Part shown: one piece after another, positions 31,770 through 34,914 of the stretch
How the letters are laid out: every line of letters begins with the position of its first letter
Position numbering within the stretch: the first letter of the stretch is position 1
From: an uncultured Gammaproteobacteria bacterium
GTDB taxonomy: Bacteria; Pseudomonadota; Gammaproteobacteria; PS1; Pseudothioglobaceae
Assembly: GCA_937896195.1 (NCBI GenBank)
Contig: CALBNC010000091.1
Span: 1 to 35,040, forward strand
DNA length: 35,040 nucleotides
Direction: 5' to 3'
Position numbers and translations under genes: made by a program
The notes under the pieces: generated by a model
What the model was told of the DNA's origin: nothing
What the model saw: only the letters and a program-made list of their open reading frames with translations
Database searches by the model: none

Positions 31770-32669
31770 CTATCTGGGTACTTTGGAAAGATTACTTAAC
31801 CAGGTATCTATTGAATCAACCAGAGCTTTCGAAGTGCCAGTTTCAGTATAGTAATGATCAGCCTTCTTGATAATAATCTGAGCATTTTGTTTATTACCTG
31901 AAATGTCCATTAATGCTTTTCTGGAATTTGACAATCGAACCACACCTGGAAAATCTTTTTCGCCGTATATGTCAAGCACTGGTTTAAGCATAACATCAAG
32001 CGGAAAACGCTTAATTACTTTTTGCTGGTAATCAGTTGCCCCCATGCCAATACCCACAAACGCGTTAACTTTATCGTCGCCAAATTTATCAAAATAACTC
32101 ATGGCCATATGTGCACCACAGCCATGAGAAATCAGGATGATATTATCAATGCCACGTTGTTTATAAAAATCAACAGCTGCATCGATACGCTCATGTGAAT
32201 AAGGGAAAATTGGCACGTAATCATAATATTTAGCTGACTTTTCCAGTACTGGCATTTGCACAGATAGTGTGTGCCAGTCTTTTTCATTAAGTCCAACTCT
32301 AAGCGGCTTGATAACACTTTCCCAATTAGCGTGAAAACCACGAGAGTGCAATAAAATAATACCGCCTTTTGGTTTTTCAGAATCTGATTCCATGAAAATA
32401 CTAAATACCTCTTGATCATTGGAAATCGGCAAATACTCGACATTACCATCCATGACTGCATCTTCAATTTCAGAGGTCATTCGGTTTTCACGCTCAATAT
32501 TGGGCTTTTCATTGGTAAATTGGTTGTAAAACTTTTGAAGTGAACTGGGATCAAAGTTTTTTATTATAGGTAGTTCTGGAAATTGAGGAAAACTACCCAA
32601 ACCTGGTAAAAATGCAAAAGCATTTATTGAAAAACTTAATGTCGCTATTGTAATAATTTTATTCCACAT
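31770..32669 (-). CDS. DUF3530 secreted alpha/beta-hydrolase-like protein
   Basis: From the ATG at 32669 the product has 299 residues: a signal peptide (about 1-19, AFA-F), then an alpha/beta hydrolase-like fold with GGIILLHSRGFHANW (102-116), DIYGEKD and a late HYYTE. The nucleophile elbow reads ISHGCGA, with Gly at about 183 where a catalytic Ser is expected, so hydrolysis by the usual triad is unlikely. A TTG- or ATG-led extension to 32705 would put 12 polar residues before the signal peptide. The start overlaps the sel1 gene end by 11 bases, so it belongs to the rhodanese cluster. Confidence 0.82.
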   Translation of the reverse strand: MWNKIITIATLSFSINAFAFLPGLGSFPQFPELPIIKNFDPSSLQKFYNQFTNEKPNIERENRMTSEIEDAVMDGNVEYLPISNDQEVFSIFMESDSEKPKGGIILLHSRGFHANWESVIKPLRVGLNEKDWHTLSVQMPVLEKSAKYYDYVPIFPYSHERIDAAVDFYKQRGIDNIILISHGCGAHMAMSYFDKFGDDKVNAFVGIGMGATDYQQKVIKRFPLDVMLKPVLDIYGEKDFPGVVRLSNSRKALMDISGNKQNAQIIIKKADHYYTETGTSKALVDSIDTWLSNLSKVPR

Positions 32670-33177
32670 ATTTTTCTTTGAGTAATTCCAATGCAGCTTG
32701 TGCATCTGGATGGTTATTTTTAGAAGAACGTGTAAACCAATAATAAGCCTGCTTTATATCACCTTTCTCTAGCATCAAAGAAGCTAGGTTATATTGCGCA
32801 TACTCATCTTCTTGCTCGGAAGCAATCAACCACCAATCTTCTGCTAGCTGAGTATCTTGCTCAACACCTTTGCCATCATAATACATCATAGCTAATTCAC
32901 TTTGAGCATAAGACACACCTTGTTTGGCTGATTTATTAAACCATTCAAAAGCTTTCTTATCGTCCTTTTCTGTACCAAGCGCATGTAAATAGCTTAGTCC
33001 AATGTTATTTTGCGCAGCACCATGTCCGCCGTCAGCGGCACGCATCATCCATTCAAAGGCATCGTCATTTCGACCTTTTTGTGAATAATCGTATCCAATT
33101 TGATACCATCGATCAAATTTCGTTTCAGCTTGCGCGAAAGAAGTAGTTAAAACATAAAAAAGGGACGCTATTAACAT
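32659..33177 (-). CDS. secreted Sel1-repeat protein
   Basis: From the ATG at 33177 the product has 172 residues: a signal peptide (about 1-17, AQA-E) and three to four Sel1/TPR-type repeats (AADGGHGAAQNNIGLSYLHALG, then SAKQGVSYAQSELAMMYYDGKG, and two less regular ones). Such proteins act as scaffolds for protein contacts in the periplasm; the partner here is unknown, with the adjacent rhodanese-like proteins as candidates. A TTG at 33204 would add nine residues. The ATG lies inside the left arm of a terminator-like hairpin, which should limit its expression. Confidence 0.85.
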   Translation of the reverse strand: MLIASLFYVLTTSFAQAETKFDRWYQIGYDYSQKGRNDDAFEWMMRAADGGHGAAQNNIGLSYLHALGTEKDDKKAFEWFNKSAKQGVSYAQSELAMMYYDGKGVEQDTQLAEDWWLIASEQEDEYAQYNLASLMLEKGDIKQAYYWFTRSSKNNHPDAQAALELLKEKYVE

Positions 33178-33184
33178 CCCTTTC
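33157..33184 (-). terminator. terminator-like hairpin over the sel1 start
   Basis: On the minus strand AAAGGGATG, a seven-base loop and CGTCCCTTT form a nine-base stem with one wobble pair, followed by more T. It lies about 20 bases past the stop of the downstream rhodanese-like gene. The ATG of the sel1 gene is the last three bases of the left arm. Confidence 0.65.
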
Positions 33185-33204
33185 TTTAAAAAAATGGTTA
33201 ACAA

Positions 33205-33879
33205 TTACTTAACTGTTAAGCCCAACAATTTCCAATCATTCATACCACCGCGGTAGTATTTGATCTTGCTTTGTGGGTAACCCATCGTTAACAATGCTCT
33301 AATCGAAGCTGGAGACTGGCCACACCATGCACCATTACAGAACAAGTATAAAGTCTTAGCATTATCATAGTTTAATACGCCATCCATATCTTTAACGCCA
33401 AATGTACCTGTCAAGATTTCAACAACAGCCATCGGATCTTTAGCAAGTGCTTTAGAGTTAAGCATAGTAAATGGAACGTTCACCGAGTGTGGGATAGTGC
33501 CTTTCTTAACCCAACCTGGTGTACGTGCATCAACAATTAACTTTGTCTTATCGCCAGCAGCGATATCACGTGCAGCATGGATTACGTCTAACTCAGTAAC
33601 TGTATCAACTGCTGCAGGCGCGAACGGTGCAGTTGGTTGAATACAGAACGGTGGACAAGGACGTGACGTCTTTGCAAACGCAGGATCAACCATATTGCTA
33701 CTGTCTGCATTACGAGAAATGCCTGCAATTTCTAATACGCCTGAAACGATACCGACTGGCTTAGCAGCTTTCTTTGCAGAAGAACCGTTATTCCAGTTAT
33801 GGTCAGCACCTAAATAGTCTGCTTGCGCACCTAAAGTAAATACAGCAGCGATCGTAATCGCTAATAATTTAATTTTCAT
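33205..33879 (-). CDS. periplasmic rhodanese-like protein, copy A
   Basis: The 224-residue exported protein has a signal peptide (about 1-20, AQA-D), a PVGIVSG motif, a CPPFC segment (C75, C79) and a rhodanese domain (about 95-224). The active-loop Cys is C181 in FCNGAWCGQSPAS, with a second Cys at 186 in the loop. Rhodanese domains carry sulfane sulfur on the loop Cys; two extra Cys pairs suggest disulfide or persulfide exchange in the periplasm. Residues 77-183 are encoded by DNA identical to copy B. AGGAG precedes the ATG, but only 16 bases lie between a terminator and the start, so it depends on read-through or on a promoter within the terminator. Confidence 0.88.
   Translation of the reverse strand: MKIKLLAITIAAVFTLGAQADYLGADHNWNNGSSAKKAAKPVGIVSGVLEIAGISRNADSSNMVDPAFAKTSRPCPPFCIQPTAPFAPAAVDTVTELDVIHAARDIAAGDKTKLIVDARTPGWVKKGTIPHSVNVPFTMLNSKALAKDPMAVVEILTGTFGVKDMDGVLNYDNAKTLYLFCNGAWCGQSPASIRALLTMGYPQSKIKYYRGGMNDWKLLGLTVK
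33331..33651 (-). repeat. 321-bp identical block, copy A
   Basis: Every base matches 34059-34379, an offset of 728. On both sides the genes differ immediately and often, including at synonymous positions. Confidence 0.95.
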
Positions 33880-33895
33880 AATAATCTCCTAGATT

Positions 33896-33920
33896 AAAAA
33901 AGCACTCTCGAAAGAGTGCT
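33896..33920 (-). terminator. intrinsic terminator between the rhodanese-like genes
   Basis: On the minus strand AGCACTCT, loop TTCG, AGAGTGCT is a perfect eight-base stem with a stable tetraloop, followed by six T. It ends copy B transcripts 12 bases after its stop and lies just upstream of the copy A ribosome site. Confidence 0.88.
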
Positions 33921-33932
33921 CTTATGCATTAG

Positions 33933-34580
33933 TTACTTAGTAGTTAAACCTAAAGATTTCCAAGCGTTCATACCACCACGGTAGTACTTAATCTTGTTCT
34001 CAGGATAACCCATTGTTAACAATGCTCTGATTGACGCTGGAGACTGACCACACCATGAACCATTACAGAACAAGTATAAAGTCTTAGCATTATCATAGTT
34101 TAATACGCCATCCATATCTTTAACGCCAAATGTACCTGTCAAGATTTCAACAACAGCCATCGGATCTTTAGCAAGTGCTTTAGAGTTAAGCATAGTAAAT
34201 GGAACGTTCACCGAGTGTGGGATAGTGCCTTTCTTAACCCAACCTGGTGTACGTGCATCAACAATTAACTTTGTCTTATCGCCAGCAGCGATATCACGTG
34301 CAGCATGGATTACGTCTAACTCAGTAACTGTATCAACTGCTGCAGGCGCGAACGGTGCAGTTGGTTGAATACAGAACGGCGGACAAGGACGTGAAGTCTT
34401 TGCAAATGCTGGATCAATTAATGCATCATTATCTTGGTTACGAGAGATACCCGCAACGTCCATAACACCTGACACAATACCTACCGGCTTACCTTTTGAT
34501 GCATGCGACTCAGCCATTACTACTGATGATGTTAAAAAAGCTACTGATGCAGCGCTTACTACTAATGTTTTAATGTTCAT
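33933..34580 (-). CDS. periplasmic rhodanese-like protein, copy B
   Basis: From the ATG at 34580 the product has 215 residues: a signal peptide (about 1-23, VMA-E), PVGIVSGVMDVAGISRN, the CPPFC motif and a rhodanese domain ending CNGSWCGQSPAS and YYRGGMNAWKSLGLTTK. The N-terminal third differs from copy A, while the centre is identical in DNA. A frame open from 34616 would add 12 basic residues before the signal peptide; AGGGGAAG directly before 34580 favours the shorter form. It is followed by a strong terminator, and so is probably the main product of the pair. Confidence 0.9.
   Translation of the reverse strand: MNIKTLVVSAASVAFLTSSVVMAESHASKGKPVGIVSGVMDVAGISRNQDNDALIDPAFAKTSRPCPPFCIQPTAPFAPAAVDTVTELDVIHAARDIAAGDKTKLIVDARTPGWVKKGTIPHSVNVPFTMLNSKALAKDPMAVVEILTGTFGVKDMDGVLNYDNAKTLYLFCNGSWCGQSPASIRALLTMGYPENKIKYYRGGMNAWKSLGLTTK
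34059..34379 (-). repeat. 321-bp identical block, copy B
   Basis: Identical partner of 33331-33651, spanning from the CPPFC motif to the first bases of the rhodanese active loop. Confidence 0.95.
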
Positions 34581-34674: not shown

Positions 34675-34914
34675 TTAATCGCAGCTTGGCTCTTCTTCTA
34701 AGTTATGATTCGCGAAAAAATCCATAACACATTCTTCTTTTGCACCTTCTTCTGCGCTGTCACAAAAATCTTTAGCACCATCGCGAACGATTTTCTTTTG
34801 CGCTTCAGATTGAGAATCTACTGGCAATGGCAATGGTGCAATTGTTTCACCAGCTACATGTGCAAATGTTACTGAACTTAATAATAAAATAAATAATACG
34901 GCTATTTTTTTCAT
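34675..34914 (-). CDS. small exported Cys-containing protein (79 aa)
   Basis: The 79-residue product has a clear signal peptide (about 1-18, TFA-HVAGE) and a mature acidic domain of about 60 residues with three Cys (C51, C62, C78). The C-x10-C pair on a predicted helix with a third Cys at the C terminus could form a disulfide or bind a metal. I do not recognise the family. GGGAGG before the ATG is the strongest ribosome site in the cluster. It is the first gene of the rhodanese/Sel1/DUF3530 set on this strand and is followed by a weak hairpin. Confidence 0.8.
   Translation of the reverse strand: MKKIAVLFILLLSSVTFAHVAGETIAPLPLPVDSQSEAQKKIVRDGAKDFCDSAEEGAKEECVMDFFANHNLEEEPSCD

Follow-up and report, generated by a model that had tools for sequence, protein, structure and literature searches.

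Recurrent homogenisation of the core of tandem rhodanese-like genes in the SUP05/Thioglobus family

The stretch of DNA analysed here (the window) comprises 35,040 nucleotides and is the whole of one contig (G000:C91) of G000, the 1.42-Mb genome, in 127 contigs, of a marine sulfur-oxidizing bacterium in the family under study, the Thioglobaceae (SUP05/Thioglobus). It carries two adjacent genes predicted to encode exported rhodanese-like proteins, copy 1 upstream and copy 2 downstream (Table 1). As in other members of the Pfam family Rhodanese (PF00581), a single rhodanese domain is recognised in each copy, scoring 45.3 and 49.3 bits in profile searches (gathering cut-off 22.2); the copies differ from that family in carrying a conserved N-terminal CPPFC extension and a C-N-G-x-W-C-G-Q-S loop. 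The closest solved chain by sequence, 3d1p, is only weakly similar (E=0.005). Comparison with relatives indicates that copy 1 likely starts at the ATG at 34580 (MNIKTLVV...) rather than at an upstream TTG. The Cys in CNG of the predicted active-site loop is encoded by both copies, and both likely serve in sulfur transfer, either in the periplasm or at the membrane.

Table 1. Features of the tandem rhodanese-like locus in the window
Feature	Position	Strand	Description	Basis
Copy A (copy 2, downstream)	33205..33879	-	224 aa, predicted exported rhodanese-like, mature N-terminus with HNWNNGSS	ORF; Pfam Rhodanese PF00581 E=1.3e-11
Copy B (copy 1, upstream)	33933..34580	-	215 aa from ATG, predicted exported rhodanese-like	ORF; Pfam Rhodanese E=7e-13; start by relatives
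Conversion tract, copy A	33331..33651	-	Same 321 bp as in copy B; runs from PFC in CPPFC to CNG in the active-site loop	Longest common substring
Conversion tract, copy B	34059..34379	-	321 bp identical to copy A	Longest common substring
Intrinsic-terminator-like hairpin and T run	33896..33923	-	Between copy B and copy A	RNA fold -16.0 kcal/mol
Small exported protein	34675..34914	-	79 aa, directly upstream of copy B	ORF; conserved order
Sel1-repeat exported protein	32659..33204	-	Adjoins copy A downstream	Pfam Sel1; conserved order
DUF3530 protein	31770..32705	-	After the Sel1 gene	Pfam DUF3530; conserved order

Of 83 family genomes searched in six frames, 46 contain the gene or a relative, and 22 complete tandem pairs were extracted from them. 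In nearly all neighbourhoods read (G061 is an exception), the 79-aa protein is followed by copy 1, then by copy 2 in genomes that have it, and then by Sel1 and DUF3530. Hairpins like that in the spacer of the window occur in 18 of the 22 pairs; none was found in the pairs of G053, G054, G057 and G058 (genus g9). A further terminator-like hairpin (A-run, GC stem, T-run) lies on the minus strand in the first codons of the Sel1 gene (signal peptide, GMLIASLF; window 33154-33186), and in the same place in 27 relatives. Across 26 distinct sequences of this element, 97% of pair cells are kept and 4 of 14 pairs have two-sided changes, and the covariation score was reached by 0 of 500 shuffles. It looks like a translated attenuator for the Sel1 and DUF3530 genes.

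The two copies are told apart by their N-terminus and by their last ~20 residues, where the copy-specific residues E/Q194, A/D206 and S/L209 recur across genera. In copy 1, KPVGIV or a similar sequence usually comes after a short leader. The leader of copy 2 is of another kind: in genus g9 its end is a lipobox-like LTAC, and in most other pairs an NWN(N) motif comes next. A similar leader with a mature N-terminal H(N/D)WNN motif was also observed in unrelated exported proteins: the three carriers are rhodanese copy 2 (window 33787-33801), NapB and a ~106-aa protein whose gene directly follows a SoxA-like gene (the latter two sites at G000:C77:10430-10444 and G000:C95:15647-15661). The feature is seen in relatives too. 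This leader region could be a common sorting tag or a shuffled N-terminal module. The window's genome also encodes a third, more distant rhodanese paralog (45% identity; G000:C95:36855-37433), which adjoins a PrmC-like methyltransferase gene, is without the CPPFC motif and has counterparts in many relatives.

Nearly all genomes holding the pair have dsrA, and genus g5 has neither the pair nor a full-length dsrA match. The link of the pair to sulfur oxidation is nevertheless loose, because g6 genomes with dsrA also are without an intact pair. In most genomes of genus g6, which retain dsrA, the rhodanese gene is frameshifted, interrupted by stops or gone (e.g. G039:C1:329934-330477, G040:C1:683965-684282 and G037:C1:413607-414025).

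An earlier note on this DNA had reported 321 consecutive identical bases, third positions included, between the two genes, and the longest common substring of the copies is indeed exactly that long, in frame, and comprises 107 consecutive identical codons. Elsewhere, identity falls to 9 of 39 aligned codons in the N-terminus before GISRN, 10 of 23 from GISRN to CP, and 21 of 41 in the C-terminus, which has 14 silent and 6 replacement differences. A permutation test, in which silent differences were shuffled among degenerate codons for the same residue, gave P about 2e-4 for the longest silent-identical run of the window pair (104 codons, against 30 silent differences elsewhere); this value is the floor of 5000 shuffles, none of which gave such a run. 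The claim of abundant silent and replacement differences in the flanks, with diverged N termini, is thereby upheld. The tract had also been said to span CPPFC, but the exact tract begins at the second Pro of the motif, and on that side identity fades over the next ~40 bp with no sharp stop. Segments of the converted core of G000 are no closer to copy 1 of relatives than to their copy 2, and neither copy stands out as the donor.

Long exact tracts recur in the family: 395 bp in G064, 321 in G000, 271 in G047, 263 in G046, 173 in G054, 113 in G057, 99 in G058 and 92 in G003, with 26-83 bp in the remaining pairs. The silent-site permutation was significant for 7 of the 22 pairs after correction for 22 tests (P<0.0023), and silent sites place the tracts at codons 55-185 in G064, about 105-193 in G046 and G047, 72-158 in G054 and 68-177 in G000. 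Because lengths and positions differ between genomes, conversion must have recurred. G046 and G047, which are close relatives, have long tracts within each genome and yet differ from each other in their cores; each has been homogenised to its own core, and conversion therefore took place after their separation. Silent divergence in the core is 0.00-0.07 between the copies of G064, G000, G054, G046, G047 and G003, and 0.11-0.47 from these to the nearest same-copy ortholog (for the window's genome, 0.01 versus 0.25-0.31).

The differing tract ends also mean that the active-site loop is no general stop. The earlier note had placed the boundary at a loop codon that is Ala in one copy and Ser in the other, but the tracts of G046, G047 and G064 pass through this codon. 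A reading of the residue as a selected difference between copies is likewise not supported: the two copies within a genome mostly agree at this position (Leu/Leu, Ala/Ala or Ser/Ser), and the residue is not copy-specific.

Separate trees for core and flanks, which had been proposed as a check, conflict. In the N-terminal tree (first 57 comparable codons), the 44 sequences of the 22 pairs split by copy (UFB 94), copy 2 of G049 being the sole misplaced sequence. The core tree (108 codons) instead joins the two copies within 12 of the 22 genomes, with a support of 100 for the window's pair. Forcing the copy split on the core was rejected (dlnL 860, AU p 1e-4), as was a constraint that united the window's two copies in the N-terminal tree (dlnL 51, AU p 0.003). 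The C-terminal 38 codons group mostly by copy in the window's genus and its neighbours, and more by genus or genome elsewhere. In 10 of the 22 pairs, within-genome core cherries are absent, and conversion is therefore sporadic. These conflicting trees, together with the independent occurrence of the same pattern elsewhere, including in the single-contig genome G057, bear out the earlier preference for recent conversion of the centre over a recent duplication of the whole gene.

Five relatives (G072, G066, G067, G044 and G002) have a single gene in the interval from the 79-aa protein to Sel1, with a copy-1-like start and the short Sel1 junction that normally follows copy 2. The tail is clearly that of copy 2 in G072 (PQSKIKYYRGGMNDWKLLGLTVK) and leans to copy 2, less sharply, in G066 and G002, so that at least these three genes resemble recombinants that begin as copy 1 and end as copy 2. 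The tails of G044 and G067 are copy-1-like despite the copy-2-like junction, and these two genes are therefore not explained by a simple crossover in the core.

We read the locus as an old tandem pair in which the core has been homogenised repeatedly by gene conversion while the ends were kept (probability roughly 0.93). The duplication would be ancient, being present across the family, and its products would be exported (periplasmic or lipid-anchored) single-domain rhodaneses. The direct repeats, 728 bp apart, would recombine such that the central catalytic part of one gene overwrites that of the other without crossover, probably by RecA-dependent double-strand-break repair. The latest such event in the window's genome would be recent, its 321 bp holding zero differences. 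If the same repeats crossed over or slipped instead, one copy would be lost and a fused gene would remain, as may have happened in some relatives. The divergent ends may persist because pairing fails there, because different export signals are useful, or both. The same core behind two leaders suggests one activity with two destinations or two expression levels.

The scatter of tract boundaries weighs against the idea that a short-read assembly merged two similar cores into one consensus and output it twice. The window's genome is fragmented, 321 bp is probably longer than a short read, and contigs of several relatives end inside rhodanese genes. The pattern is, however, found with different boundaries in many unrelated assemblies, among them the one-contig G057 (113 bp, P about 2e-4) and the SUP05 scaffold genome G046 (263 bp); assemblers merge nothing but near-identical sequences, and pairs with cores about 50% codon-identical (G062, G063 and G065) were assembled normally. 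Since G057 is a single contig, such an artefact is unlikely as a general cause, and we consider it very improbable. The contig breaks in G077 and G068 were also considered as a sign of identical cores and dismissed, the broken ends being without exact overlap and the shared tracts only 38-55 bp long. Purifying selection at both the protein and the silent level could be invoked for what is a conserved catalytic domain, without any recombination; but the cores of G062, G063, G065 and G070 differ silently between copies at 26-31 of 108 codons, and orthologs of different genomes have silent differences at 11-47% of comparable codons, which shows that silent sites are unconstrained and leaves this explanation practically no room.

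Cores would also group within genomes if each genome had recently duplicated the gene in tandem on its own and the ends had then diverged fast, and tandem pairs are hard to tell from re-duplication according to the authors of a survey of concerted evolution (PMC6053082). Against this stand the N-termini of copies 1 and 2, each common to several genera, the recurrent copy-specific tails, and the conserved spacers and gene order; for the rhodanese pair, the conservation of copy-specific N-termini settles the question in favour of conversion, and we give re-duplication next to no credence. The short distance between the repeats and the existence of single-copy relatives with a copy-2-type junction would suit RecA-independent template switching or replication slippage as the source of both exchanges and deletions. 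Unconverted pairs offer few long pairing sites, though, with exact stretches of 26-41 bp in the cores of G062, G063, G065, G070 and G071, and we regard this route as unlikely.

Conversion of the core, as preferred here, takes place in a family in which searches for two mismatch-repair genes came up empty. MutS was detected in 0 of 83 family genomes by TIGR01070 and in 0 of 83 by Pfam MutS_V; 11 of 14 control genomes were positive, and MutS was found in 104 of 114 genomes of a sample across the class, which was used because an order-level search returned the same family alone. No MutL match exceeded the cut-off in 49 good family genomes, which gave weak short matches only. RecA was over the cut-off in 69 of 83 family genomes, that of the window included; five g6 genomes, all of them without an intact pair, either lack it or have a broken version. 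Thus, the core is homogenised recurrently and ancient copy-specific N-termini and tails are retained in a family in which MutS and MutL are undetectable and RecA is present. Among 274 genomes sampled across the class, no mismatch-repair-proficient relative with a comparable tandem pair was seen, and searches of the open-access literature turned up no account of SUP05 having lost MutS, or of MutS and MutL being undetectable across the family.

MutS and MutL ordinarily stop strands from exchanging where the sequences have diverged (Worth et al. 1994, as cited in PMC5485169). When mutS is mutated in Salmonella, conversion of the tuf genes becomes roughly 200-1000 times more frequent, with rates per generation at three sites that rise from 2e-6 to 1e-3, from 1e-5 to 2e-3 and from 2e-8 to 2e-5, and the unrestricted walk averages about 1000 nt (PMC5485169). 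Because MutS and MutL are undetectable while RecA is present, the chief barrier to recombination between diverged copies seems to be missing in the family, and we infer that this is the reason for the frequent exchange. Tracts of 170-400 bp that fade at divergence would be compatible with exchange free of mismatch repair. A wider and more tentative proposition, which we hold at somewhat below even odds, is that Thioglobaceae/SUP05 lost MutS and MutL and hence recombine diverged repeats unrestrained, the tandem rhodaneses being a read-out (core-only concerted evolution, distinct conserved export ends and fusion deletions) that other paralogs should match.

Among the nearest precedents is tufA/tufB of Salmonella and Escherichia coli, likewise two chromosomal paralogs homogenised by non-reciprocal transfer, with a much higher conversion rate and longer tracts without MutS (PMC5485169). 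The Salmonella tuf genes differ at few nucleotides over their full length, whereas the rhodanese copies lie side by side and have diverged at either end, and the Thioglobaceae are naturally without detectable MutS or MutL, family-wide. Recurrent concerted evolution, with paralogs within a species closer than orthologs and repeated along a clade as here, has been described for 26 prokaryotic genes (PMC6053082); no rhodanese is mentioned there, and the pair studied here is homogenised in the core alone. We found no report of this rhodanese gene conversion in the open-access literature. The tandem rhodaneses are therefore a well-documented new case of bacterial concerted evolution, a phenomenon itself known.

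The case is a clean natural one, in that trees inside and outside the core, silent sites and gene order agree over 22 pairs, and it is a warning that core-gene trees built from such paralogs are misleading. Its hosts form an ecologically major family of sulfur oxidizers, uncultured and symbiotic. Should the absence of MutS and MutL be the cause, the family would be a natural mutS-minus experiment on the limits that mismatch repair sets to gene conversion, and the same absence may explain genome fluidity in these symbionts.
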